From positions 1-40,240 of the forward strand of contig CACBDD010000005.1 in NCBI GenBank assembly GCA_902537905.1: a DNA stretch of 40,240 nucleotides. The letters are read 5' to 3'. Of this stretch, positions 2,181 through 16,906 are shown in pieces. The number at the start of each line of letters is the position of its first letter. Positions within the stretch are counted from its first letter, which is position 1. The DNA comes from an uncultured Pelagibacteraceae bacterium (GTDB lineage Bacteria > Pseudomonadota > Alphaproteobacteria > Pelagibacterales > Pelagibacteraceae). Under the pieces are notes generated by a model that worked only from the letters and a program-made list of their open reading frames with translations, was not told the DNA's origin and did no database searches. Both the position numbers and the translations under genes were made by a program.

Positions 2181-3714
2181 TATTTTTTTCTATTTTTTGA
2201 AATAGTATATCAATTTTATTGATATTATCTCCTTTGGTTAAATATTCATTATTTGAAATAGTATTTAATTTTATTTGAGTTTCATTAATATCAAAAATTT
2301 TCAGTGCTTTTAGAGAAGATACTGGAATGATTGGATATAGTAAGAAACTTATTTTCCTAACAATTTCTAATGTAGTATATACAATTGTATTTAATCTGAT
2401 TTTTTCATCTTTCTTTTTCCATGGTTCCTGATCATTAAAATACTTATTGGCCTCAAAAAGAGAATTAACAATATAGTCTATATAAAAGTTGATATTTTGA
2501 TGATCAATTTTAGATCTAATATTATCTAAATTATCTTGGTACTTATTTAAAATTAATAAATCTTCATCTTGAAATTTAATTTCAGATGGAATTTTTCCAT
2601 CACAGTTTTTTATAGCAAAAGCCGTTACTCTTTGGCATAAATTTCCATAGTTATTTGCTAAATCGCTGTTGATACAATCTTCCAATCTATCCTGAGAAAT
2701 GTTGCCATCATTACCGAAAGAAACTTCTTTAATTAAATAATATCTTAATGGATCTAAACCATATTCTTTAATTATCACTAAAGGATCCAAAATATTTCCC
2801 TTGGATTTTGACATTTTTTCTTCTCCAGATAAAATCCAACCATGACCATAAACTCTTTTTGGTAAATCAATTTTAGCAGCTAATAAAAAAGCTGGCCAAT
2901 ATACAGCGTGAAATCGTAGTATATCTTTACCAATTAAATGTATTGAAGCGGGCCAAAATTTTTTGAACAATTCATCTTTTTTATTAGGATAATTTAATGC
3001 ACTTAAATAATTTGTAAGTGCATCTAACCAAACATATATAACGTGATTTTTATTACTTGGAACTGGTATTCCCCATGAAAAACTTTTCCTACTGACAGAA
3101 AGATCTTTTAGACCACTTTTTACAAAACTAATAACTTCATTTCGTCTAGATTCTGGATAGATAAAATCTGGATTGTCTTCATAATATTTTATTAATGGTT
3201 TTTCCCATTTTGAAAGTCTAAAAAAATAAGACTCTTCCTCAATCCATTCCACTGGAGATTTGGATGATATAGCTATTTTTTTACCATCTATTTCTTCAAT
3301 TTCATCTTCGTTATAAAAAGCCTCATCAGATACTGAATACCATCCAGAATAATTTGATAGATAAATATCATCGTTTTTTTCAAGTTCAGACCAAAGATAT
3401 TGCACAGTTTTTTTATGTCTATCCTCAGTTGTTCTGATGAAATCAGTGTTGCATAAATTGAGCGTATCAGATAGGTCACGAAAAGTTTTGCTTATTTGAT
3501 CACAAAATTTTTGAGGAGTTTCACCTGCTCGTTCTGCTGATCTTTGTATTTTTAAACCGTGCTCATCAGTTCCAGTTAGAAAATGTACTTTATAATCATC
3601 AATAATTTTAAATCTTGCAAAAAAATCTGCAACTATACTTGAATATGCATGTCCCATATGAGGTTTAGCTGATGGATAATATATAGGAGTTGTAATATAA
3701 AAATTTTTATTCAT
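2173..3714 (-). CDS. metG: methionyl-tRNA synthetase
   Basis: YYPSAKPHMGHAYSSIVADFFAR (HIGH-like), GTDEHGLKIQ, KMSKSKGN (KMSKS). Confidence 0.96.
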   Translation of the reverse strand: MNKNFYITTPIYYPSAKPHMGHAYSSIVADFFARFKIIDDYKVHFLTGTDEHGLKIQRSAERAGETPQKFCDQISKTFRDLSDTLNLCNTDFIRTTEDRHKKTVQYLWSELEKNDDIYLSNYSGWYSVSDEAFYNEDEIEEIDGKKIAISSKSPVEWIEEESYFFRLSKWEKPLIKYYEDNPDFIYPESRRNEVISFVKSGLKDLSVSRKSFSWGIPVPSNKNHVIYVWLDALTNYLSALNYPNKKDELFKKFWPASIHLIGKDILRFHAVYWPAFLLAAKIDLPKRVYGHGWILSGEEKMSKSKGNILDPLVIIKEYGLDPLRYYLIKEVSFGNDGNISQDRLEDCINSDLANNYGNLCQRVTAFAIKNCDGKIPSEIKFQDEDLLILNKYQDNLDNIRSKIDHQNINFYIDYIVNSLFEANKYFNDQEPWKKKDEKIRLNTIVYTTLEIVRKISFLLYPIIPVSSLKALKIFDINETQIKLNTISNNEYLTKGDNINKIDILFQKIEKNND

Positions 3715-4636
3715 TTAAAACTTTATCCTCAAATTCCATAAATAGTGTCTCTTCGTCTAAATTATATATTTTAGTGTCATTAATTTTTTTTAAAAAATAA
3801 TGATAATGATGAAATAAATTAATATTTTTTGTAGATATATTGTTTCTAAAATAAACTTCAATAAAAGAATAAATTAATTGAATAATTGGTTTACTTTTTT
3901 TGTAAGCTTTACTTGTTATTAAACTTTTCAAAAAAATATCTAAATTACTATTCTTAAGATCTAAATCATAATCTTCAGCTAGTTTTAATAATTCATATAA
4001 TTTACCTGGTGTTATAAAATAACTTAATAAATTTTGATTTATTAAGTTATGAACATCATCATTTATTAATTGATTGATAATTTCAATAGACTGATCATTT
4101 GTTAAAAAAATTTTGAAATTTAAACATCTTGACTTAAGTGTAGGTAAAACTCTTTTGTTATTATTAATTAAGATAAAATTTATATTTTCATTAGGTTCTT
4201 CCAATACTTTTAGTAAAGCATTGATTGAATTCAAATTTAATAACTCAATATTATCAATTAAAACAAATCTTTTTTTTTTATTAAATGAGGATTTATTTAG
4301 ATTAATTATTAAGTCTCTTATTTGATTTATATCTATATTTTTTTTATCTTCTGCAACGTCTATAAGATTAAAATTTGGATTAGATTTATTTTGTATAAGT
4401 TTAAATGATTTATTCTCTAAATTAATTTCATTATTTTTAATATCATATGAATTTTCCTCATCTTCTGATAATACAAAGTTTATTAAATGATAACCTAAAG
4501 TTGCTTTACCTATTCCTTTTTCTCCAGATAAAAGTATTTTATTTGGTAATTTGTTATTTAAAAATAATTTACATAAGTGATTAAAAATTTCGTGATGTCC
4601 ATATAAATTATGTTGTATAGATGAATTTAATTTCAT
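3707..4636 (-). CDS. holB: DNA polymerase III delta' subunit-like AAA+ protein
   Basis: LLSGEKGIGKATLGYHL (Walker A), LLKVLEEPNENINFILINNN, SRC motif; between metG and tmk. Confidence 0.85.
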   Translation of the reverse strand: MKLNSSIQHNLYGHHEIFNHLCKLFLNNKLPNKILLSGEKGIGKATLGYHLINFVLSEDEENSYDIKNNEINLENKSFKLIQNKSNPNFNLIDVAEDKKNIDINQIRDLIINLNKSSFNKKKRFVLIDNIELLNLNSINALLKVLEEPNENINFILINNNKRVLPTLKSRCLNFKIFLTNDQSIEIINQLINDDVHNLINQNLLSYFITPGKLYELLKLAEDYDLDLKNSNLDIFLKSLITSKAYKKSKPIIQLIYSFIEVYFRNNISTKNINLFHHYHYFLKKINDTKIYNLDEETLFMEFEDKVLNE

Positions 4637-5250
4637 TTAATTAATTTTTTAACTTGATTGATAATTAGTTCTTCATTTTTCTTAATATCTAAATTTGAGT
4701 CAATTACTTTATATTTTTTTTTATTTAATTTAGATAAATCGAGAAATCCCTTTTGAACCTTGTTATAAAAACTAGCATTAAATTGATCATATCTATTTAA
4801 AGATTTACGCATTTTTAATCTTAAGAAAAGATTTTTTTTATTAACAACATTAAGAAATGTAAAATTCACTTTTATATTTTTTAATAAATATTTATTTAAT
4901 GTATTTATAATCTTAATATCAACACCCATACCAAAGTGCTGATAAGCAATTGTTGAGTCTGTAAATCTATCAATCAAGATAATTTTTTTTTTATAAAATT
5001 TTTTAATAAGGTTAATATTTTCACTTCTAGCAGCTAAATATAAAAGTAGATCTGTTTTTACATTAAAATTAGATTTTTTATTTAAAATTAATTTTCTGAT
5101 TTTTTCAGAATTTAAACTTCCACCTGGTTCTCTGATTCTTATGTATTTAAATTTATTTTTTTCTAAAAACCTGGATATAACTTTAATATGGTGGCTTTTA
5201 CCACTGCCCTCAATACCTTCAAAAACTATTATGGGTTTCTTAGACATCAC
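4633..5250 (-). CDS. tmk: thymidylate kinase
   Basis: PIIVFEGIEGSGKSHH (P-loop), REPGGS, DRFTDSTIAYQ. Confidence 0.95.
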   Translation of the reverse strand: MMSKKPIIVFEGIEGSGKSHHIKVISRFLEKNKFKYIRIREPGGSLNSEKIRKLILNKKSNFNVKTDLLLYLAARSENINLIKKFYKKKIILIDRFTDSTIAYQHFGMGVDIKIINTLNKYLLKNIKVNFTFLNVVNKKNLFLRLKMRKSLNRYDQFNASFYNKVQKGFLDLSKLNKKKYKVIDSNLDIKKNEELIINQVKKLIK

Positions 5251-6391
5251 CCCAAATTAGGTAGTTTAATGATTTAAGCAATCTAGAAAAGAAATTTACT
5301 TTTTTAATTTCTTTTGAAGCAAGCAAATCATATTCACCTACTAATTCTTGGTCATAAACCACTTTTAATGTTGCAACTTTTTGATCTTTATTTATTGGCG
5401 CTTCAACAGGACCATTGTAGTTTACAGAAACTTTTAGTAATTTTTTCTTTGCTTTTTTAATTGTTTTGTAAATATCTTCATTTGTATAAACATCTACTGT
5501 CTTTTCTTTGCCTAACCAAACGTCTATTTTTTGAAAAGGTTTATTTGCCTCAGTTATTTTTACTAAATCAAAATTTGTAAGTGCATATGTTAACATTTTT
5601 GTGCTCTCTTTAGATCTTGAATTTTTTGATTTAAAACCACTTCCAACTGCAATCAACCTTCTACCATTTCTATCTATTGATGATGCTAATGAATATTTTT
5701 CTAAAGCGAGATATCCAGTTTTAATACCATCTGCGCCAAGATTTTTATATAAGAGAGGATTTCTATTACCTTGTGTTATTGGATCACCTCCTGTTCTGTC
5801 CCAAGTAAATTCTTTTTCTGCAAACATTTTATAAAATTCGGGATGTTCTTTGATTAAATATCTTGACATAATCATTATATCTCTAACTGTTGAACGATTA
5901 TCGGGATGATTGATACCAGATGAATTAGAAAAAATCGTATTATCCATACCTAACTCTTTAGCTTTGGCTGTCATTAAAATTGCAAATTCTTCTTCCGTAC
6001 CAGCTATACCTTCAGCTAATGCTACACAAGCATCATTGCCGGATGCTATGATTATTCCTTTGAGTAAATTTTCAACTGAAACCTGATCTCCAACCATAAT
6101 AAACATTGACGAGTATCCTGAGGTGGATAATCTCCAAGCTCTTTCTGAGATAATAAACTTTTCATCCATATTTAAATCACCAGACTTAATTAAATCAAAG
6201 GCAATAATTGAAGTCATGATTTTTGTCATAGACGCAGGATAGATTGATAAGTCTGCCTCTTTTTCAAAAAGAATTTCTCCAGAATGATAATCTTGAATTA
6301 TTGCAGTTTTTGCTTTGACATCAAAATTTGCAAATGATTTAGTTACAAAAAATATGAATATTAAAATAATTAAATATAATTTTTTATACAT
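5240..6391 (-). CDS. D-alanyl-D-alanine carboxypeptidase (PBP5/6 family, S11)
   Basis: YPASMTKIMTSIIAF (SxxK), SGNDACVALAEG (SxN), DGIKTGYL (KTG), signal peptide. Confidence 0.94.
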   Translation of the reverse strand: MYKKLYLIILIFIFFVTKSFANFDVKAKTAIIQDYHSGEILFEKEADLSIYPASMTKIMTSIIAFDLIKSGDLNMDEKFIISERAWRLSTSGYSSMFIMVGDQVSVENLLKGIIIASGNDACVALAEGIAGTEEEFAILMTAKAKELGMDNTIFSNSSGINHPDNRSTVRDIMIMSRYLIKEHPEFYKMFAEKEFTWDRTGGDPITQGNRNPLLYKNLGADGIKTGYLALEKYSLASSIDRNGRRLIAVGSGFKSKNSRSKESTKMLTYALTNFDLVKITEANKPFQKIDVWLGKEKTVDVYTNEDIYKTIKKAKKKLLKVSVNYNGPVEAPINKDQKVATLKVVYDQELVGEYDLLASKEIKKVNFFSRLLKSLNYLIWGDV

Positions 6392-7223
6392 CTTTAATAA
6401 TTTTCAGGTTTTCAAAGTTTAGTTTTTCAATTTCGTCAAATGACTCTTGAATTTTTTTTATATCATTATATGGACCTAATAATACCCTAAATTTTGTTTG
6501 TGATAATTTTTTTATTATGGGGTTTTTTATGTCAGTTTCATCCTTGATTCTTTTAATCATATTTTCTGCTGAGTCCTTATAATAAAAGTCTGCGATTTTA
6601 ATTGAGTACAGAAAATTACTTTGGGCAATTTTAGGTAATTCTTTTTTTTCTACAGTTCCTAAATTATCTATAGTTATTCCATCAACGGGAGCTTTTTGAG
6701 CAACTTTTTTTTCCTCATCAAATGTTTTTGCTTTTTTTGCTACAAAAGTTGATTTATTAGAAATTAAAGATAATTCAACATAAGGTTCATTTTCATCAAG
6801 TAATAATTCATCAACGATTCTTTTAGTGATTACTGAATTATAAAAATTTGAAAAAATTGCATTATTAGATATTACTTGAGCAATCACAGTTTTTGTATTT
6901 TCAGGATTAGTAATTTTTACAAAAGAATTTTTTCTAATTTTTGTATGAAATATATATAATCCTCTGTTGTCTATTTTTTTTGATATTTTTTTTTCATTAA
7001 ATAATATTTCATTATAAATTAAAGCAAAACCTTGATTGGTATATTCTCTATTAAAAATATATTTTGAGCTGTCTTCTTCGATTTTTTTTGGAGGTTTGGA
7101 AGATACCTTTTCTTTAATTATATCAGGTTCTGTTTTAATTATTATTTTTTGAGGTTTTTCTACTTGTTTGCAGCCAATAAGTAAAACTAATAAAAATAAT
7201 GAAATTATTATTTTAAAGCTCAT
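6384..7223 (-). CDS. lipoprotein with degenerate RlpA-like region and C-terminal SPOR domain
   Basis: Lipobox LLIGCKQ; NQGFALIYNE...IDNRGLYIFHTKIRKNSFVKITNP RlpA-like; C-term YSIKIADFYYKDSAENMIKRI...FRVLLGPY SPOR-like. Confidence 0.7.
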   Translation of the reverse strand: MSFKIIISLFLLVLLIGCKQVEKPQKIIIKTEPDIIKEKVSSKPPKKIEEDSSKYIFNREYTNQGFALIYNEILFNEKKISKKIDNRGLYIFHTKIRKNSFVKITNPENTKTVIAQVISNNAIFSNFYNSVITKRIVDELLLDENEPYVELSLISNKSTFVAKKAKTFDEEKKVAQKAPVDGITIDNLGTVEKKELPKIAQSNFLYSIKIADFYYKDSAENMIKRIKDETDIKNPIIKKLSQTKFRVLLGPYNDIKKIQESFDEIEKLNFENLKIIKDV

Positions 7224-8214
7224 TTTTAAATTTATCCTTTAATGTACAAACAGCTAAAGCAAATCTCAATGACCTGTTCCATTGTAAAATTATTTCATAA
7301 TTATCGAATACTACATAAGCTGGATTTAAAGTTTCAGCATCAGGAATTATATCTTTATCCGGTGTTATTATTGCTACCTCTAAATCATTGTAAGTATTTG
7401 GGATAATTGAATTATTTTGAATATATTTTCTAAAAAACTTTAATTGATTTTTGTCATGTAATTTTTTTGCAGAAATATTTAAATATTTTTTTGGAATTTC
7501 GTTTTTTAAATCAATTCTGTAAAAACATGGTCCATTAGTCTTCCAACCTATTTTTTTCAAATAATTACTTGCGGAAGCGTACGCATCAGGATTGCTTTTT
7601 AAGTTTATAGAACCATTTTTATCATAGTCGGTAGCATAATTTTTTATCGTAGAGGGCATGAATTGGAAATAACCAAAAGCACCTGCCCATGAACCATACA
7701 ATGTTTTATAATTAATTTTTTTTTTTTCTATTAAATTTAAAAGTATTAAGAGTTCTTTAGTAAAAAATTCAGATCTTCTTTTATCAAAACTTAATGTGGC
7801 AAGTGAAGAAAGAATATCCATTTTACCTACATAAGTTCCAAAATTTGTTTCTATCCCCATTAATGATAAAAGAAGTTCTTTTTCTATATTAAACTCATTT
7901 TCAACAGAATTAATTAATTTTAAATTATCAATATATAATTTTTTTCCTAATTTAACTTTTTTGTCGGTGGTTCTTTTTGTTATGTATGTTTTTGTATCTT
8001 CATAAAACTCAGGTTGATATCTATCATATTTAATTACATTTGATAAAAACTGAGTGTTAGACATAACTAGATCAAATGTTTCTTCTGAAATATTATTTTT
8101 AAGAGCAATTTTTTTGAAATTTTTTTTCCAATTTTCAAATTCAATATTTACGTCTGCTAGACTGATATTATGTAAAAAGAGAGATAAAAAAAATATAAGT
8201 TTAATTAGTTTCAT
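7213..8214 (-). CDS. lytic murein transglycosylase (MltB family)
   Basis: LLSLMGIETNFGTYVGKMDILSSLATLSFD, GSWAGAFGYFQFMPSTIKNYATDYDKNG; signal peptide. Confidence 0.92.
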   Translation of the reverse strand: MKLIKLIFFLSLFLHNISLADVNIEFENWKKNFKKIALKNNISEETFDLVMSNTQFLSNVIKYDRYQPEFYEDTKTYITKRTTDKKVKLGKKLYIDNLKLINSVENEFNIEKELLLSLMGIETNFGTYVGKMDILSSLATLSFDKRRSEFFTKELLILLNLIEKKKINYKTLYGSWAGAFGYFQFMPSTIKNYATDYDKNGSINLKSNPDAYASASNYLKKIGWKTNGPCFYRIDLKNEIPKKYLNISAKKLHDKNQLKFFRKYIQNNSIIPNTYNDLEVAIITPDKDIIPDAETLNPAYVVFDNYEIILQWNRSLRFALAVCTLKDKFKNEL

Positions 8215-9079
8215 ATAAATCTCTCAAATATATAATTACAGCAAACCAGATTATAATAAAACTTACTAATTTATTAAATGAGAAAACTTCATTGTAATAA
8301 AAAAAACCTAATAAAAATTGAAGAGTTGGTGTAATGTAGAAAATCATTCCTGACGGTCCTAAACCACATAATTCAACTCCTCTTACATATAAAAATAGAG
8401 GTATTACAGTCATTGGACCGGCTAATAATATTATTAACATCATTGAAGGATTGGATAATGAGAAATCATTGTAACCTTTGGCTGCAATCATATAAAATAC
8501 AATTATTGCAATTGGTAATATAAATAAACTTTCTATTAAAAGACCAATATCAGTATCTACATTTATTTTTTTTCTCACTAAATTGTAAAACCCCCAACTT
8601 AAAGCTACAATTAAACCAACCCAAGGAAGAGATTTTAAGCTTACAAAAATTAAATATAAAATTGATAAAATAACTAACGTAATTGAAAATATTCTTTTAT
8701 TATTTAATTTCTCTTTAAAAAAAATATAACCAAGAAGCACACTTAATATTGGCATTATAAAATAACCAAAACTAGCATCAATTATTCTATTAGTAGCGAT
8801 AGCGTAAATCCAAACTCCCCAATTAAGAAAAATCAAGAAACCTGAGATAAATAAATAAATAAGATTTTTTTTATTTTTAATTATTTTTAAAAAAATATCC
8901 CATTTAGAAAAAAAGAAGGTTGTTAATATTAAAGTCAACGTTGTCCATAAACATCTGTGAATTACAAGTTCAATATAACCAATAAAAGTAACATATTTAA
9001 AATACAAAACTCCAAAAAAACCCCACCAAAAAGATCCAAATCCAGCAAGTAAAAGACCTTTATTAAATTCTTTATTCAT
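8201..9079 (-). CDS. rarD: EamA/DMT family transporter, RarD-like
   Basis: ~10 TM helices; GSFWWGFFGVLYFKYV, ELVIHRCLWT, GPMTVIPLFLYVRGVELCGLGPSGMIFYITPTLQFLLG. Confidence 0.87.
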   Translation of the reverse strand: MNKEFNKGLLLAGFGSFWWGFFGVLYFKYVTFIGYIELVIHRCLWTTLTLILTTFFFSKWDIFLKIIKNKKNLIYLFISGFLIFLNWGVWIYAIATNRIIDASFGYFIMPILSVLLGYIFFKEKLNNKRIFSITLVILSILYLIFVSLKSLPWVGLIVALSWGFYNLVRKKINVDTDIGLLIESLFILPIAIIVFYMIAAKGYNDFSLSNPSMMLIILLAGPMTVIPLFLYVRGVELCGLGPSGMIFYITPTLQFLLGFFYYNEVFSFNKLVSFIIIWFAVIIYLRDLYETN

Positions 9080-9164: not shown

Positions 9165-9203
9165 GGAGAGATGGCTGAGCGGTTGAAAGCACCGGTCTTG
9201 AAA
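9165..9203 (+). repeat. tRNA-Ser(UGA) 5'-half fragment 1 (39 nt; left junction of unit 1, inferred attL)
   Basis: Exact match to nt 1-39 of the intact tRNA at 14479-14568; diverges after the anticodon loop (cttgaaaTACCAAG versus cttgaaaACCGGC). Confidence 0.97.
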
Positions 9204-9319
9204 TACCAAGTTTACCCTACCCTCTTTAAGACGATTCACATACTTATCAAGACAATCCTCATTTTTTGAAATTTAGCTTTTACGAAAAATACATCATTCC
9301 TGACTAGCCTAAGCTAGAA

Positions 9320-9340
9320 AACTTGTACCAAACTTGTACC
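9320..9340 (+). repeat. Unit 1 left arm repeat R1: AACTTGTACCA AACTTGTACC
   Basis: Two 11-bp-period copies; same 21-mer at 11664-11684. Confidence 0.95.
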
Positions 9341-9351
9341 AAGAATTATAT

Positions 9352-11622
9352 TTATCTGTAACTAATTAAAACTTTATCTGGGTCACCAGATAAAGATGGA
9401 TTTTGTTCTCTTCCAAGCTCTGCTGCCTTTTGAGATACATTATCATCCATATAAGAAAGTAACTCACCGTTAGTTATTTTTTTATCTTGGTTGCTATCTG
9501 CCTTACCTTCTAATCCCTTCATAAGATAATATGAAAATATTCCGTGTTCAGCTTCTTTTAAACCAGATGATATTTGATCTAATTTAGATGCAGTAAATAT
9601 TGTAAAGTTATCAGGTATTCCTTCTTGATCATCTGCAACAATTCTTATTGGACGTGCTGATGCAAGTAGCATTTTTTCGTCTCTTGAAATACCGCTATAA
9701 CAAGTGTCCATAAACATAGTTACAGATTTCGGATTTAATTTAATAATTTGTTCAAATAGTTCTGTTCTTGATAAAGCAGTTCTACTTAACAAATCTGGGT
9801 CACTATCTTGAGGTAAAATATATAATTCTTCACCGTTATTAGATGCTAAACCGTGACCAGCAAAGAATATTATTAATTCTGTTTGATTATTCTTAATTTT
9901 GCTTGGTAACCATTTATTTATCGTACTAATAGATTTTATTAAACTTGCGTCTTCATCTACCAATAATTTAATATTAGCTTTTGGTATTCCAAATCCTTTT
10001 CTTGCGTATTCATAAAAATACTGAGCATCTAAATTAGCAAAATTAGCAGCTGGTGTTTGTTCGTATTTTTCAATACCAATGATTAATGCTACTCTGTTTT
10101 TATTAGATCTTGATTTAATTAATGAAGGATTTAATTGCTCAAGTTTATCTGCAACTATAGTTTCTTTAATATCAACAGTAACATTTACAATTTTTGGCTT
10201 AGATTTATTGCCCCATTGGTCTATTGCAACTATTTTTAATTGTTCATCAATAGGGCTAAATCTTGGAATTGAAAATTTACCATCTTTAACAACTATAGTT
10301 TCTCCATCTACTTGGACAAATAATTTCTTAGATTTATCGATTACTTTACCTTTAATTTCATAATTGCTGTCATTAACAGTTATATTCTCAGCTATCTCAA
10401 TTATTGGTGCATCATTATCTTTATCTTCAGGTTTAAATTCCTCTTGTTTAGACTCTTCTACCTTAGCAATTTTAACTTTTTTCTTTTGTTTTATAGGAAT
10501 CTTGGGTTTCCAGTAACCAAGAGGTTCTAAAGTTCTGAAATTTTTTTCTTCTACAATGCCAATTGTATCAACTAAGTATGCATAAAAAAGTTCGTCTTTA
10601 TAGTTCTGATCTATAATAAAATTAGAATTACACGTATAGTATGGGTTATCAAATCTTCTAATTTTATATTTGTATTCATTTGTTTTCGTATCATACGACC
10701 TATGATTATTTACACAAAATTTGATATTTTTATCCATCTCCTGCGTTTGACTTGGTTTTCCTTTAGCAATTTCAGTTTTTTTATCTTCTATTGATGGTGT
10801 TCCAAACAATATATTTCTAGCATCAACTTTAATAATAATTTCACGATCTTTAATAAGATTAACTTTATAAGGTGCGCATAGTTGAATTGCTCTCAAAACA
10901 CTTTCTGAAAGAACTTTGTAAAATTCTTGACCTGGTTGTTTTAATCTCTTTTGATCAAGTATTTGTGTATGAAATACTGAACCATCATAGTCTAATAGCA
11001 ACTTTACTTTTACTATAAGATTTTTTTCATTTACTGGAAGTCCCATAGGAAGACTAAGACAGCTGCTTATTTTATTTGAAATCATAGTAGAAACTATTTC
11101 ATTACTATCACCGAAAGAATAAATGTCTGGTTCAGGGTTTTTTGCTTTTGAAATTAAATCAGCTATCTTATCTGGATCGGTCAACAATTCATTTTCTTTA
11201 GATTCTTTTTTAGCTAATTTTGTTTTTTCCAATTTGTCAATCTTTGCAAAAGTTTTGGAAAAATAATTTCGATGATTAGAAGGAAGTAAATTTTTAAAAT
11301 TAGCTAATTTAAGATTTTTCCATAATGGTGAACTGAATGCAATATTGCCTTTGCCATAAGTTTTTTCAAAAAATAAATATAGTGATTTATTTTTCTTTTT
11401 ACTTATTTCGTACAAATCATATTTTGGTCCTGTTGTAGTTCTGTAACACTCTGCTTTAAGCAAATGAGTTCTTTTGTCAGTTATGGATACTTGTTCTTTG
11501 TAGCTTTTTTTTGGATCCTCCAGATAAATTTTTACACAAAATACCCTGCCCGCTTCAGCATTTATACTAAATACTAATCCAAAACCAAAAACTATAAATA
11601 GATATGCTAGTAACCTCTTCAT
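9352..11622 (-). CDS. secreted caspase-like (peptidase C14) protein with TolA-C-like and Ig-like domains and an EF-hand-like loop
   Basis: Signal peptide MKRLLAYLFIVFGFGLVFSINAEA; KISSCLSLPMG..LIVKVKLLLDYDGSVFHTQILDQKRL..SESVLRAIQLCAPY (TolA-C-like); DNDAPIIEIAENITV..IKGKVIDKSK (Ig-like); RVALIIGIEKY, IIFFAGHG (catalytic His), TMFMDTCYSG (catalytic Cys); DSNQDKKITNGEL. Confidence 0.92.
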   Translation of the reverse strand: MKRLLAYLFIVFGFGLVFSINAEAGRVFCVKIYLEDPKKSYKEQVSITDKRTHLLKAECYRTTTGPKYDLYEISKKKNKSLYLFFEKTYGKGNIAFSSPLWKNLKLANFKNLLPSNHRNYFSKTFAKIDKLEKTKLAKKESKENELLTDPDKIADLISKAKNPEPDIYSFGDSNEIVSTMISNKISSCLSLPMGLPVNEKNLIVKVKLLLDYDGSVFHTQILDQKRLKQPGQEFYKVLSESVLRAIQLCAPYKVNLIKDREIIIKVDARNILFGTPSIEDKKTEIAKGKPSQTQEMDKNIKFCVNNHRSYDTKTNEYKYKIRRFDNPYYTCNSNFIIDQNYKDELFYAYLVDTIGIVEEKNFRTLEPLGYWKPKIPIKQKKKVKIAKVEESKQEEFKPEDKDNDAPIIEIAENITVNDSNYEIKGKVIDKSKKLFVQVDGETIVVKDGKFSIPRFSPIDEQLKIVAIDQWGNKSKPKIVNVTVDIKETIVADKLEQLNPSLIKSRSNKNRVALIIGIEKYEQTPAANFANLDAQYFYEYARKGFGIPKANIKLLVDEDASLIKSISTINKWLPSKIKNNQTELIIFFAGHGLASNNGEELYILPQDSDPDLLSRTALSRTELFEQIIKLNPKSVTMFMDTCYSGISRDEKMLLASARPIRIVADDQEGIPDNFTIFTASKLDQISSGLKEAEHGIFSYYLMKGLEGKADSNQDKKITNGELLSYMDDNVSQKAAELGREQNPSLSGDPDKVLISYR

Positions 11623-11641
11623 AGTATTACTTTACCAAATG

Positions 11642-11647
11642 ATTATA
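11642..11647 (-). promoter_or_regulatory. candidate -10 (TATAAT) of unit 1 caspase gene
   Basis: Minus strand CCTATAATCATTTGGTAAAGTAATACT-ATG; conserved in unit 2. Confidence 0.5.
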
Positions 11648-11663
11648 GGATTTTACAGGATGA

Positions 11664-11684
11664 AACTTGTACCAAACTTGTACC
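11664..11684 (+). repeat. Unit 1 right arm repeat R1: AACTTGTACCA AACTTGTACC
   Basis: Identical 21-mer to 9320-9340, same orientation. Confidence 0.95.
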
Positions 11685-11759
11685 TTTTGAAAATTTCTTA
11701 AAAAAAAAGCTCTGTTTTTTTGTTGAATTTATAATTTATACTTATAAAACCTTGCTCAC

Positions 11760-11798
11760 GGAGAGATGGCTGAGCGGTTGAAAGCACCGGTCTTGAAA
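11760..11798 (+). repeat. tRNA-Ser(UGA) 5'-half fragment 2 (39 nt; junction between unit 1 and unit 2)
   Basis: Identical to 9165-9203 and 14479-14517, followed by the same TACCAAGTTTACCCTAC as fragment 1. Confidence 0.97.
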
Positions 11799-11914
11799 TA
11801 CCAAGTTTACCCTACTCACTTTAAGACGTTTCACATACTTATCAAGTCATTGCTTACGTTTTGAAATTTAGCTTTTACGAAAAACGCATCATTCTTGAAC
11901 AGCCTAAGCTCCAA

Positions 11915-11936
11915 AACTTGAAGTAAACTTGAAGTA
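11915..11936 (+). repeat. Unit 2 left arm repeat R2: AACTTGAAGTA AACTTGAAGTA
   Basis: Two perfect 11-bp copies; matched at 14383-14402. Confidence 0.95.
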
Positions 11937-11946
11937 AAAATTATTT

Positions 11947-14343
11947 TTATCTATAACTAATTAAAACTTTATCTGGATCACCTGATAACATCGGTTCTTG
12001 TTGTCTGTTGTTAATAAATGCTTCCTCAGAAACATTTTGTTTTAAATAAGCTATTAATTCTCCATTTGTAATTTTTTTATCTTGATTGGAATCTGCCTTA
12101 CCTTGCATACCCATCATTAGATAGTAAGAAAATATTCCGTGTTTAGCTTCTTCAATGCTACCAGAAGTTTGGTCATAATTTGAAGCAGTAAATATAGTAA
12201 AATTATTTTGTACTTCTTGCTCCTCTGCAACTAATCTTATTGGTCTTAATCCGGCAACTAACATTCTTTCATCTCTTGTTTGACCGCTATAACAAGTATC
12301 AAAAAACATCGTAACTGAGTTAGGCTCAACTCTATTTATTAAATCAAAAATTTCTAATCTTGAAAGTGCAGTGTATTGTAATAAATCAGCATCACCATCT
12401 TGAGGTAAGATATATAGGTTTTTACCATCATCAGACGCTAAACCGTGACCAGCAAAGAAAACATAAATATCTTTATTTTTTCCTCTTGCAATTTGTGGAA
12501 GCCACAAAGTTAATGCTTTTAAGGTTTCTCCTCTTGTTGCATTCTCATCAATTAAAACTTTTATATTTTTATTAGGTATTCCCAAGGCTCTGTTTGCATA
12601 AGCTCTAAATGCATTTGCATCTCTATTTGCATATGGTGCATCAATATTTTTAAGAGTTTTATATTTTTCAATTCCTATAATTATTGCTATTTTATTTTTA
12701 TCTTGCTTAACTTTTATCTTGCTTGGATTGGGTTTTTCATAAGATCTTAATTCAGCTATTTCCTTAAATTCAACTTTAATATTTATCGTTTTTTCAGATT
12801 TATTTTGCCATTGATCTATAGCAACTATTTTAATCTTATCACCTGCATCAGGATCAACAACGAAACCTTCTAATTCAAAATTACCTCTTTTTGATATTTT
12901 TAAAGGTCTACCATTAGCTTCTAGATATAACTTGCTCTTGTCATTTACCTTCCCCTTCAAAGTATAAGTTTGGCTATCAACAATAATATTTTGAGCTATC
13001 TCAATTACAGGTGCATCATTATCAATATCTCTATTCTCAGGTTTAAATTCCTCTTGTTTAGGTTCTTCTACTTTAGCAACTTTAACTTTTTTCTTAGGGG
13101 TTGTTGTTAATTTTTCTAAAACATTTTTTTCATATGCAGTAAGTAGCTCTAAATATTTAGTTTTTGAGACTGCAAAAAAATATTTACTACAATTTTTTTT
13201 AATTTGAAAATAAAGACCTGGTGATTTACTTAAACCAACAAAATTTTTAATTCTTTCATGAGATTTTACATAAGAATGTGTGCAGTACAGAAGGTTATCC
13301 TCATTTTGGCTTGGTTCTGCTTTAGCGATTTGGGTTTTTTTATCTAAACTATTTATAAAATTTTCAATAGGTGAAATATCAAGTCCCCATGCTTGATATT
13401 GACTTCTTAAATTGGCTAACCTGACTTTGAAAAATTTATCATTTTCTTTATAATCTAGTGCAGCTGCAATATACTCATTTTCAGATATCCTTGATACAGT
13501 TACGGGTCCTCCTGTAGGACCCTGAACAGCTTTACAACTTTTCTTTGAAATAAAATAATCACCTCTGTTATCACAAAAATATATATTTGATTTAATTTCT
13601 TTTTTCTGCGTTTGGCTTGGTTCTGCTTTAGATATTTGGGTATTTTCGCAATCAAAACCTTTTTTTAAATTATCAAAATTTATTTTTAAATCGTTAAATT
13701 TTAAAGCAGATCTAACAAAATTATCTGGAATAGGAGTTTTTTTAAAATAATTTATTTCATTTTCTATACGGTCAATATCGATTTTAATTTTATTTTTTAA
13801 ATTATTACAGCTGTTAAAACTAAAATTTGTAGTATTTAATTTTTTATATTCAAACTCTTCTTTTCTATTAGTCAACTCTTTAATATCTTCTTCAAAATTG
13901 GTTAATTTTGTGAAGAAAAGTTCTCTGTCAAAATTTTGGCTTGGTTCTTTCGTTTTATTCTTTTTGTTCTCATTTGTATTTATTTCTGCAGCAAATGCTC
14001 CTCTTTTTAATGTTTTTAAATCTTTAATAATAATATTAATAAATTTTTTTTCTTTAAAATTAGAATTTTTTAATTGTGAAGATAATTTTTTTACAGCATT
14101 GTCCATGCTATCAATAGAATTATTTACATAATTAGTTTCTGCTTCTGAAATACCTTTACTTAATGCTTTTGAATAAACTAATCGCTCTAATGTTCTTAAT
14201 TCTTTCTGCAAACATTCTAAGTATTTTACATCTGGTTTCACTTCTAAATTTGAACATGCGTATTTTTCTTGAGCAATACAACTTGTATTTAACACCAACC
14301 CCAAACCAAGAATGATGAACAGATATGCTAGTAGACGCTTCAT
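11947..14343 (-). CDS. secreted caspase-like (peptidase C14) protein with coiled-coil/Cys-module N-terminus, Ig-like domain and EF-hand-like loop
   Basis: Signal peptide MKRLLAYLFIILGLGLVLN; repeated AKAEPSQ linkers; DNDAPVIEIAQNIIV..LKGKVNDKSK; KIAIIIGIEKY, VFFAGHG, TMFFDTCYSG; DSNQDKKITNGEL. Confidence 0.92.
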   Translation of the reverse strand: MKRLLAYLFIILGLGLVLNTSCIAQEKYACSNLEVKPDVKYLECLQKELRTLERLVYSKALSKGISEAETNYVNNSIDSMDNAVKKLSSQLKNSNFKEKKFINIIIKDLKTLKRGAFAAEINTNENKKNKTKEPSQNFDRELFFTKLTNFEEDIKELTNRKEEFEYKKLNTTNFSFNSCNNLKNKIKIDIDRIENEINYFKKTPIPDNFVRSALKFNDLKINFDNLKKGFDCENTQISKAEPSQTQKKEIKSNIYFCDNRGDYFISKKSCKAVQGPTGGPVTVSRISENEYIAAALDYKENDKFFKVRLANLRSQYQAWGLDISPIENFINSLDKKTQIAKAEPSQNEDNLLYCTHSYVKSHERIKNFVGLSKSPGLYFQIKKNCSKYFFAVSKTKYLELLTAYEKNVLEKLTTTPKKKVKVAKVEEPKQEEFKPENRDIDNDAPVIEIAQNIIVDSQTYTLKGKVNDKSKLYLEANGRPLKISKRGNFELEGFVVDPDAGDKIKIVAIDQWQNKSEKTINIKVEFKEIAELRSYEKPNPSKIKVKQDKNKIAIIIGIEKYKTLKNIDAPYANRDANAFRAYANRALGIPNKNIKVLIDENATRGETLKALTLWLPQIARGKNKDIYVFFAGHGLASDDGKNLYILPQDGDADLLQYTALSRLEIFDLINRVEPNSVTMFFDTCYSGQTRDERMLVAGLRPIRLVAEEQEVQNNFTIFTASNYDQTSGSIEEAKHGIFSYYLMMGMQGKADSNQDKKITNGELIAYLKQNVSEEAFINNRQQEPMLSGDPDKVLISYR

Positions 14344-14363
14344 AGTATTACTTTACCAAATGA

Positions 14364-14369
14364 TTATAG
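14364..14369 (-). promoter_or_regulatory. candidate -10 (TATAAT) of unit 2 caspase gene
   Basis: Minus strand CCTATAATCATTTGGTAAAGTAATACT-ATG, same as unit 1. Confidence 0.5.
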
Positions 14370-14382
14370 GATTTTATAGGAC

Positions 14383-14402
14383 AACTTGAAGTAAACTTGA
14401 AG
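14383..14402 (+). repeat. Unit 2 right arm repeat R2: AACTTGAAGTA AACTTGAAG
   Basis: Matches 11915-11934 except the final base, same orientation. Confidence 0.93.
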
Positions 14403-14478: not shown

Positions 14479-14568
14479 GGAGAGATGGCTGAGCGGTTGA
14501 AAGCACCGGTCTTGAAAACCGGCAAAGGGGCAACTCTTTCCTGGGTTCGAATCCCAGTCTCTCCGCCA
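14479..14568 (+). tRNA. tRNA-Ser (anticodon TGA/UGA)
   Basis: GGAGAGA/TCTCTCC acceptor stem, anticodon stem CCGGT-CTTGAAA-ACCGG, long variable arm, GGGTTCGAATCCC T-arm, encoded GCCA end. Confidence 0.97.
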
Positions 14569-14854: not shown

Positions 14855-16906
14855 ATGGATAATAAAACTAATTATGAATATTTATTATCTAACTTAACTG
14901 CTTTGAGTGGTGTTGGTATAAAAACAACAAATTTACTAAAAAAAAAGAATATAAATAATATTTTTGATTTGCTTTGGAAGCTACCAAAGTCTTATACAGA
15001 TAGAAGTTTATCAACAAAAGTAAAAGATTTAAAAATCGGTGAAAATCAAACTGTTACTATTGTCGCAAATAAATATTTGTTTCCAAGAATTAGAAAATTG
15101 CCAAATAGAGTTAAATGCTCTGACGAAACGGGTGACTTAGATTGTGTTTTTTTTAACAGTTATGAGGGATATATTAAAAAAATATTACCTTTAGGAAAAG
15201 AAATAACTGTAAGTGGAAAAATTGGCTATTTTAAAAACAAATATCAAATTACTAACCCAAAGTATGTATCTGAGGATTCTAGTCTAATAAAACAAGTTCA
15301 TAATAAATATTCGTTAACCGATGGTATATCTGAAAAAATTTATAATAAAATTATTAAACAAATAATAGATAAATTGCCTAACCTTAAAGAATGGCATTCG
15401 AATAAAATTTTAAATAAATTTGATAATATCAGTTGGAATGATGCCATTAAAGAATTACACAAACATGAGAATATAGGAAAATACAAAAATCATTTTTATC
15501 AAAGACTTGCCTATGATGAAATATTTGCAACATTTCTAGTTAATTCAGAAATAAGAAAAAAAATAAAGAAAGTTAAAAAGAGAAATAAAATTATTAATTT
15601 AAATAAACAAAAACAACTAATTAATAAATTAGATTTTTCGTTAACAAATGATCAAGTTAAGTCGATTAACGAAATTAATGAGGATTTGTCATCCTCAACT
15701 AAAATGTTCAGACTATTACAAGGAGATGTTGGCAGTGGAAAAACAATTGTCTCATTGTTAGCTGCGTTTAATACTATTAATTCTGGTTTCCAAGTAGCAG
15801 TTATGGCCCCTACTGAAATACTAGCAAGACAGCATTATAATTTGGCAAAAAAAATTTTTCCATCAAACATATCAACAGAGTTAATTTCTGGTAAATCTAG
15901 CTACAAGGAAAAAAAATTGATCACCAATGAGCTAATAAATAATAAGATTAATATAATCTTTGGCACTCATGCTATTTTTCAAAAAACAGTTAATTTTAAA
16001 AAATTAGGATTAATAATTATTGATGAACAACATAAGTTTGGAGTTAACCAAAGAAAAAGGTTGTCTGATAAAGGAGGAAATGATTGTGATGTATTATTAA
16101 TGACTGCAACACCTATTCCAAGAACTTTAACAATGACAATTTATGGTGATATGGATTTATCAATTATTAGAGAAAAACCAAAAAACCGTAAAATGATAAA
16201 AACTTACAGTAAATTAGAAAGTAAAATTGATGATGTAATCAAATTTATAAAAAAAGAGATTAATTTAGGAAATCAAATTTTTTGGGTTTGTCCTTTAATT
16301 GAAGAATCTAAAAAACTAGATCATGCATCTGCAATGCAAAAATTTGAATATTTAAAAAAATTATTCCCTAAACAAGTCTCAATACTTCATGGAAAAACAG
16401 ATATAAGTAAAAAAGAGGAAATATTAAAAAAGTTTTTAAAAAAAGAATTTAAAATATTGGTATCAACAACTATTATTGAGGTTGGCATAGATTTCCCAAA
16501 TGCAAATGTAATAATAATTGAAAATGCAAATAAGTTTGGTTTATCTCAACTTCACCAATTAAGGGGTAGAGTTGGTCGAGGAGAAAAAGAGGCTACTTGT
16601 ATTCTTATGTTTAAATCAAACTTAAGTGAAAATGCTAAAAAAAGAATAAATATTTTAAAAGAAACAAATGATGGATTTGTTATTTCCGAGGAAGATATGA
16701 AGATCAGAGGTTTTGGTGATATTTTAGGCTTTAAACAAAGTGGTGTTAAAAATTTCAAGCTAGCAGATCCAATTCAGAATAGTGATTTATTTGAATTAGC
16801 CGAAAAAGAAATAAAAAGAATTGAACTTGAAAATGAAAATTTAAGTAAATTCAAACCTTTAATAAAATTATACGATAGAGCAGATATAATTAACGATATA
16901 GCTTAA
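14855..16906 (+). CDS. recG: ATP-dependent DNA helicase RecG
   Basis: LLQGDVGSGKTIVSLLAA, IIDEQHKFGVNQR, LMTATPIPRTL, QLRGRVGRGEKEATC; OB-fold N-term. Confidence 0.97.
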   Translation: MDNKTNYEYLLSNLTALSGVGIKTTNLLKKKNINNIFDLLWKLPKSYTDRSLSTKVKDLKIGENQTVTIVANKYLFPRIRKLPNRVKCSDETGDLDCVFFNSYEGYIKKILPLGKEITVSGKIGYFKNKYQITNPKYVSEDSSLIKQVHNKYSLTDGISEKIYNKIIKQIIDKLPNLKEWHSNKILNKFDNISWNDAIKELHKHENIGKYKNHFYQRLAYDEIFATFLVNSEIRKKIKKVKKRNKIINLNKQKQLINKLDFSLTNDQVKSINEINEDLSSSTKMFRLLQGDVGSGKTIVSLLAAFNTINSGFQVAVMAPTEILARQHYNLAKKIFPSNISTELISGKSSYKEKKLITNELINNKINIIFGTHAIFQKTVNFKKLGLIIIDEQHKFGVNQRKRLSDKGGNDCDVLLMTATPIPRTLTMTIYGDMDLSIIREKPKNRKMIKTYSKLESKIDDVIKFIKKEINLGNQIFWVCPLIEESKKLDHASAMQKFEYLKKLFPKQVSILHGKTDISKKEEILKKFLKKEFKILVSTTIIEVGIDFPNANVIIIENANKFGLSQLHQLRGRVGRGEKEATCILMFKSNLSENAKKRINILKETNDGFVISEEDMKIRGFGDILGFKQSGVKNFKLADPIQNSDLFELAEKEIKRIELENENLSKFKPLIKLYDRADIINDIA

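Follow-up and report, generated by a model that had tools for sequence, protein, structure and literature searches.

Cargo-bearing units inserted at tRNA genes of SAR11 bacteria carry the same pair of short repeated words at both of their ends, and the words differ among units. To judge from the sequence comparisons described here, these repeats are probably integrase arm sites that serve as addresses, the units being moved in trans by satellite-encoded integrases. In the lambda, Tn1549 and P4-type systems, a core site lies between arm sites, to which the integrase binds with an N-terminal beta-sheet domain. Few organisms in the sea are as abundant as SAR11, and the exchange of accessory genes in its streamlined genomes is poorly understood.

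The window, i.e., the whole stretch that was analysed, is a 40,240-base contig of genome G000 (757 kb, 57% complete). It holds two stacked integrase-less units at tRNA-Ser(TGA), with one secreted caspase gene apiece. The relevant features are as follows:

8201–9079, minus strand: DMT/RarD-like transporter gene, the left chromosomal flank (tblastn identity of 69–93% in the empty-site loci of five relatives)
9165–9203, plus strand: outer left junction, the native 5' half of tRNA-Ser(TGA) that remained after insertion (identity stops at the anticodon loop CTTGAAA)
9320–9340, plus strand: left arm pair of unit 1, words ACTTGTACC twice with an 11-bp period; the repeat is AACTTGTACCAAACTTGTACC
9352–11622, minus strand: cargo of unit 1, a 756-aa secreted caspase-family protein (PF00656)
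11664–11684, plus strand: right arm pair of unit 1, words ACTTGTACC twice; the repeat is AACTTGTACCAAACTTGTACC
11716–11798, plus strand: element-borne tRNA upstream region and tRNA-Ser 5' half (11760–11798), the junction between units 1 and 2 (repeat family D4)
11915–11936, plus strand: left arm pair of unit 2, words ACTTGAAGT twice; the repeat is AACTTGAAGTAAACTTGAAGTA
11947–14343, minus strand: cargo of unit 2, a 798-aa secreted caspase-family protein (PF00656)
14383–14402, plus strand: right arm pair of unit 2, words ACTTGAAGT and ACTTGAAGC; the repeat is AACTTGAAGTAAACTTGAAG
14479–14568, plus strand: intact tRNA-Ser(TGA), its 5' half (to 14517) from unit 2 and its 3' half (from 14518) native (ARAGORN; empty-site comparison)
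14855–16906, plus strand: recG, the right chromosomal flank (tblastn identity of 55–95% in the empty-site loci)

An earlier, sequence-only reading of this DNA had described the four repeats, and all of them were located at exactly the positions and on the strand that it gave. The left copies begin 116 nt past the end of the tRNA identity in both units (9203 and 11798), as had been claimed, and the right copies stop 114 and 115 nt ahead of that end (11798 and 14517), within the range of about 113–115 nt proposed. Exactly four copies of the motif AACTTGNNNNAAACTTG are present in the 40,240 bases, whereas 100 dinucleotide-preserving shuffles yielded no copy; a chance origin of the repeats was rejected. 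The two caspases share a near-constant MKRLLAYLF leader and the caspase end, with a very variable middle. Further short conserved repeats lie between the core and the left arms, both in the window (9204–9319 and 11799–11914, with TTTAAGACG at tRNA-Ser) and in the tRNA-Leu units, where they are GTAGTC-like. These are possibly the sites of another factor.

The direction of insertion can be read from empty sites. Five congeneric genomes have an uninterrupted locus of transporter gene, tRNA-Ser, small ORF and recG. In the window, the leftmost half is preceded by native sequence, which resembles that of the empty site of a near relative (G082, locus L261), and the region upstream of the restored right-hand tRNA is element-derived. 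The upstream promoter region of the tRNA is repeated along with the 5'-half copies. Each unit thus brings a tRNA 5' half with its promoter, and stacking therefore leaves dead halves at the left.

Searching with the caspases and the junction patterns led to Pelagibacteraceae loci with units at tRNA-Ser and tRNA-Leu(TAA). Of 300 genomes of the genus, 67 have a tRNA-Leu half-junction, and the regions around these junctions were parsed for units. The complete units found comprise 62 at tRNA-Leu(TAA), six at tRNA-Ser (those of the window included) and 24 at a protein-coding gene. At tRNA-Leu, the left arm pair stands 123–128 nt past the junction, and the right pair ends about 83 nt before the next tRNA. 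The claim that the left and right repeats of a unit co-vary was put to the test with these units. Across the 62 tRNA-Leu units, the left and right ends (two 9-mers each) differ by 1.26 mismatches per 18 nt, against 6.94 when the right ends are shuffled among units, with a minimum of 5.60 in 10,000 shuffles; identical ends were found in 31 units, where 1.9 are expected. The automatic word extraction misread the register in L020 and L200, and both were retained in the statistic, which can only weaken it. At tRNA-Ser, the ends match in all six complete non-composite units, which use three words: ACTTGTACC (window unit 1), ACTTGAAGT (window unit 2, L016 and L292) and ACTTGAGAC (cargo unit L291 and satellite L299, in which the first left copy has diverged to ACTTGGTAG). 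The third target is the 5' end of a small protein-coding gene (CAGGAAGCTGGCGATTATTT), where arms of the same kind, often with a 12-bp period, differ by 2.62 mismatches per 18 nt against 6.75 shuffled (minimum of 4.92; 24 units). Co-variation of the two ends thus held at three targets that are unrelated to one another.

More than 25 distinct words were found among the units. They follow the 9-bp consensus nCYNGWNNN, in which C2 is invariant, G5 is nearly so, and positions 3, 4 and 6–9 vary and co-vary between the ends. Mismatched or exceptional ends were seen in L203 and L226, in the third-target units L293 and L350, and in L022, a 14.7-kb array at tRNA-Ser with TACC at its far left and AAGT at its far right that is taken as a composite with its inner junctions lost. 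The core of L292 is that of satellite L299 and the words of the two differ, so core and word recombine. A further tRNA-Leu unit, L235, was noticed in the window's own genome (G000:C18, about 2439–7921, reverse complement), with right words ACTAGAAAC twice and an eroded left pair.

The cargo units are mostly 0.9–6 kb long and carry no recombinase. A total of 193 ORFs of at least 150 aa, satellite genes included, fell into 121 clusters, and the cargo ranges from caspases, Zorya ZorA/ZorB, type I and IIG restriction systems, McrB and Mrr to proteases, an autotransporter and an ABC transporter. In the tRNA-Leu units, 166 of 174 ORFs are co-directional with the tRNA; the start of the first gene is usually 164–230 nt past the junction. 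The orientation of the words is constant, whereas that of the genes differs between the tRNA-Ser and tRNA-Leu units. Gene-free micro units of about 210–236 nt also exist, in which only one arm pair is left, spaced from each junction roughly as expected; their form is as deletion between matched arms would leave. The unit with the word ACTAGACGT is 96–99% identical in L023, L188, L213 and L228, and the downstream chromosomal DNA is only 75–76% identical between the pairs L023/L188 and L228/L213; across genomes with flanks this divergent, the identity of the unit is 96–97%. Judged by these identities, a cargo unit has moved laterally between genomes.

The sequence-only reading had likened the arrangement to a tyrosine-recombinase attP, and the units do present repeated arm sites to the left and right of a core that lies at the target identity. 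It was found that ends with matched words also occur in integrase-bearing elements at the same tRNAs. The IMG/VR contigs L145 (terminally repeated, with a 7.7-kb unit) and L158 have the tRNA-Leu junction, end-matched words and a 545-aa tyrosine recombinase, and L164 likewise combines the junction, matched end words and a tyrosine recombinase. Chromosomally integrated members of this integrase family are present in SAR11 at tRNA-Leu (L199, L192 and L182) and at tRNA-Ser (L299), and in these four the integrase is the first gene past the junction. The left arms of the satellites fall inside or just ahead of the integrase reading frame, and the elements carry a primase-helicase in addition to the integrase. 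L145, L192 and L199 may be phage satellites (VEIME or PICI-like), a class defined by an integrase, replication genes and packaging by a helper phage: integrase and primase-helicase are present, and one of the contigs, in a viral collection, is terminally repeated. Some words are common to satellites and cargo units: ACCAGCACA to satellite L199 and cargo units L177, L178, L182, L207 and L209; ACTAGAAAC to satellite L192, unit L227 and the right ends of L201 and L235; ACTTGAGAC to satellite L299 and cargo unit L291. The words therefore probably tell the enzyme which cassettes to move. Most satellite integrases match PF00589, with family scores near the cut-off. In the integrase alignment (satellites only), the catalytic R-K-R-H-Y residues are invariant, and the fold matches given below predict an N-terminal arm-binding domain.

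Among all units scanned with phmmer, integrases were found only in four satellite units. The satellite integrase is rare, being present in about four of the 300 genomes as compared with the 67 that have tRNA-Leu junctions, and most cargo units are therefore without a resident helper. No integrase bearing the window words ACTTGTACC or ACTTGAAGT was found in the 300 genomes or the viral contigs, and the window words together with the tRNA-Ser half-junction are absent from the viral contigs, where alignment of the caspases found no relative either. Nothing in the phage collection matched the L199 integrase. A PF00589 search of the window's own genome returned no match, in a genome that is 57% complete and for an integrase family that scores near the cut-off. 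Most PF00589 matches in the genus belong to a conserved gene of about 325 aa and were set aside as Xer-like, and five core-pattern loci in viral contigs were rejected as chance matches inside phage coding sequence.

The arm-binding domain was approached through an AlphaFold model of the L199 integrase. The model is moderate overall (mean pLDDT of 73, pTM of 0.43), and a beta-beta-beta-alpha domain is predicted near residues 73–125 with a pLDDT of 80–90. Foldseek matched the model to Tn1549, Xer and lambda integrases (6en2 and 1z1b among the matches) and matched the arm domain separately to the HPI integrase 3jtz (TM of 0.77) and the P4-like integrase 3rmp (0.70). The predicted N-terminal domain of the satellite integrase thus resembles P4-type arm-binding domains. 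The domain also appears modular: the N-terminus of L161 is 73% identical to L192 and 47% to L145, and the next 160 columns are 50% and 85% identical, respectively, a pattern that identifies the L161 integrase, at the level of sequence, as a domain swap between integrases. L145 and L164, which have a common word, are 94% identical in the N-terminus; L158, with a different word, is 76–77% identical to them there and 93–98% elsewhere. This association of N-terminal domain and word is a correlation in few sequences. Taken together, the reading of the repeats as putative arm-type tyrosine-recombinase sites is supported.

In the mechanism proposed, a satellite-encoded tyrosine recombinase would bind the 9-bp words, two copies at 11 bp, via its N-terminal domain, and recombination would take place at the anticodon stem-loop of the tRNA or, in the third class, at the 5' end of the small gene. 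The same word would be needed at both ends, because one integrase must bridge both arms. The right end of the element would carry the 5' part of the target and a promoter, so that insertion restores a working gene and the old 5' half remains. Repeated insertion would then stack the units. The cargo units would have lost, or never had, an integrase, and satellites with the same word would move them in trans.

Other explanations of the matched ends have to be weighed against this mechanism. The match could reflect recent copying of one end from the other, by gene conversion or duplication, rather than one protein reading both. The ends within a unit are indeed similar, and related units have shared descent. 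However, among the 60 units that have no more than four mismatches, left/right identity exceeds shuffled values by 0.33 within the words, but by only 0.01 over the 25 nt upstream of them and by 0.02 over the 25 nt downstream. Shared descent lifts the similarity of both ends jointly and does not explain a border at the edge of the word. Moreover, the copy-specific variants TCTCGTACA/CCTCGTACA and ACTTGCACC/ACTTGCACA recur at both ends, and copying is thus very improbable. The same border bears on the earlier proposal of two specificities acting on otherwise similar ends: the agreement is indeed confined to the words, whereas the number of specificities, more than 25, is far from two.

A role of the repeats as transcription-factor operators of the caspase genes, in the manner of PhoB-like 11-bp direct repeats, is scarcely credible at all. 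The right copies in the window are indeed located upstream of the caspase start codons, at a distance of about 40 nt, but the repeats stand at both ends, in units with unrelated cargo and in gene-free micro units, and the genes are flipped relative to the words at tRNA-Leu. The words could also be sites of a recombination directionality factor (excisionase), in which case they would label the ends for excision and differ from one excisionase to another. Repeats in direct orientation at about 11 bp suit wHTH excisionases as well, and small satellite proteins of about 97–116 aa, encoded after the integrase, are candidates for this role. This explanation is unlikely, although less so than the previous two, as the placement of the words is near-symmetrical at both arms, divergence and swapping hit the arm domain of the integrase rather than its catalytic part, and the N-terminal domain resembles known arm-binding domains.

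Arm sites read by an integrase would place the SAR11 units beside the lambda, Tn1549 and P4-type systems, with which they have in common a core with flanking arm sites and a similar predicted N-terminal domain. What the literature covered does not describe is a large set of non-autonomous units with dozens of matched arm words and a domain swapped between integrases. The definition of an integron cassette (attC hairpins, IntI and a resident integrase) does not apply, as the ends consist of tRNA halves and arm words; no integrase was found in the 57% complete genome G000.

Integrase-less tandem islands are already known. The CIMEs and microCIMEs of Streptococcus are integrase-less tandem units that retain att sites and carry cargo, with gene-free micro forms of 130–220 bp (PMC7563491). 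The SAR11 units likewise keep their att sites, lack a recombinase, stand in tandem with cargo and have micro forms. CIMEs derive from ICEs or IMEs and move by accretion and conjugation; on incidental inspection, no gene for conjugation was noticed in the relatives of the SAR11 units. These autonomous relatives are primase-helicase satellites rather than demonstrated ICEs or IMEs, many units are solitary and without a resident helper, and the ends carry diversified matched words. The ssrA islands of Dehalococcoides are also arranged in tandem at one RNA gene, with an integration module in some and variable cargo (PMC3146451), but they use a serine recombinase and an ssrA 3' fragment, in contrast to the tyrosine recombinase, tRNA 5' half and variable arm words of SAR11. 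Tycheposons are bordered by tRNAs, measure 4–200 kb and have their own tyrosine recombinase (PMC10872708). With these and other additive flexible islands, the SAR11 units have in common tRNA-anchored variable cargo and tRNA-fragment repeats in streamlined marine bacteria (PMC10872708); at about 2.6–2.7 kb and without a recombinase, the units of the window fall outside the tycheposon definition. The new element is the diversified, end-matched addresses, of which no published report was found in the literature covered, which omits most subscription journals.

There is about an even chance that SAR11 as a whole has a dispersed form of cassette exchange, in which rare satellites carry small promoter-bearing cassettes, address-tagged at both ends, from species to species at three fixed chromosomal sites, and in which the integrase arm domains of the satellites diversify and are exchanged along with the words; such a system would be integron-like, with the integrase travelling separately. 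If so, tRNA-Leu, tRNA-Ser and one small gene would be the places at which defence systems, secreted caspases and other cargo pass between species in cassette form with the help of these satellites. With dozens of matched words, nature offers a data set for the recognition code of integrase arm domains, through which long-assumed features of arm sites (the same protein at both arms, specificity in the N-terminal domain) become directly testable. They could also yield orthogonal integration tools.

Several related elements were seen along the way. Elements that use different sites were set aside, namely prophages at tRNA-Leu(TAG) and the satellites of tmRNA and tRNA-Val. L167 and L171, at tmRNA and beside tRNA-Val in SAR11 genomes, have related satellite-like gene sets with other integrases. 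Six phage-like contigs (L146, L149, L150, L162, L163 and L165) carry a 335-aa integrase beside a tRNA-Leu-type core, with arm words of about 10-bp period that, compared by eye only, are apparently matched on both sides (GTGTCCT; GTGGCGT). Transfer by satellites or phages would fit the mechanism proposed. On contig L176 (IMG/VR 3300025897_000973), which has phage-like genes (PhoH-like), positions 4950–5100 hold the right end of a unit (words ACCTGTACA twice, GAGATAA) and a tRNA-Leu 5' half that runs into non-tRNA sequence; the contig may be a phage genome that carries a cargo cassette.
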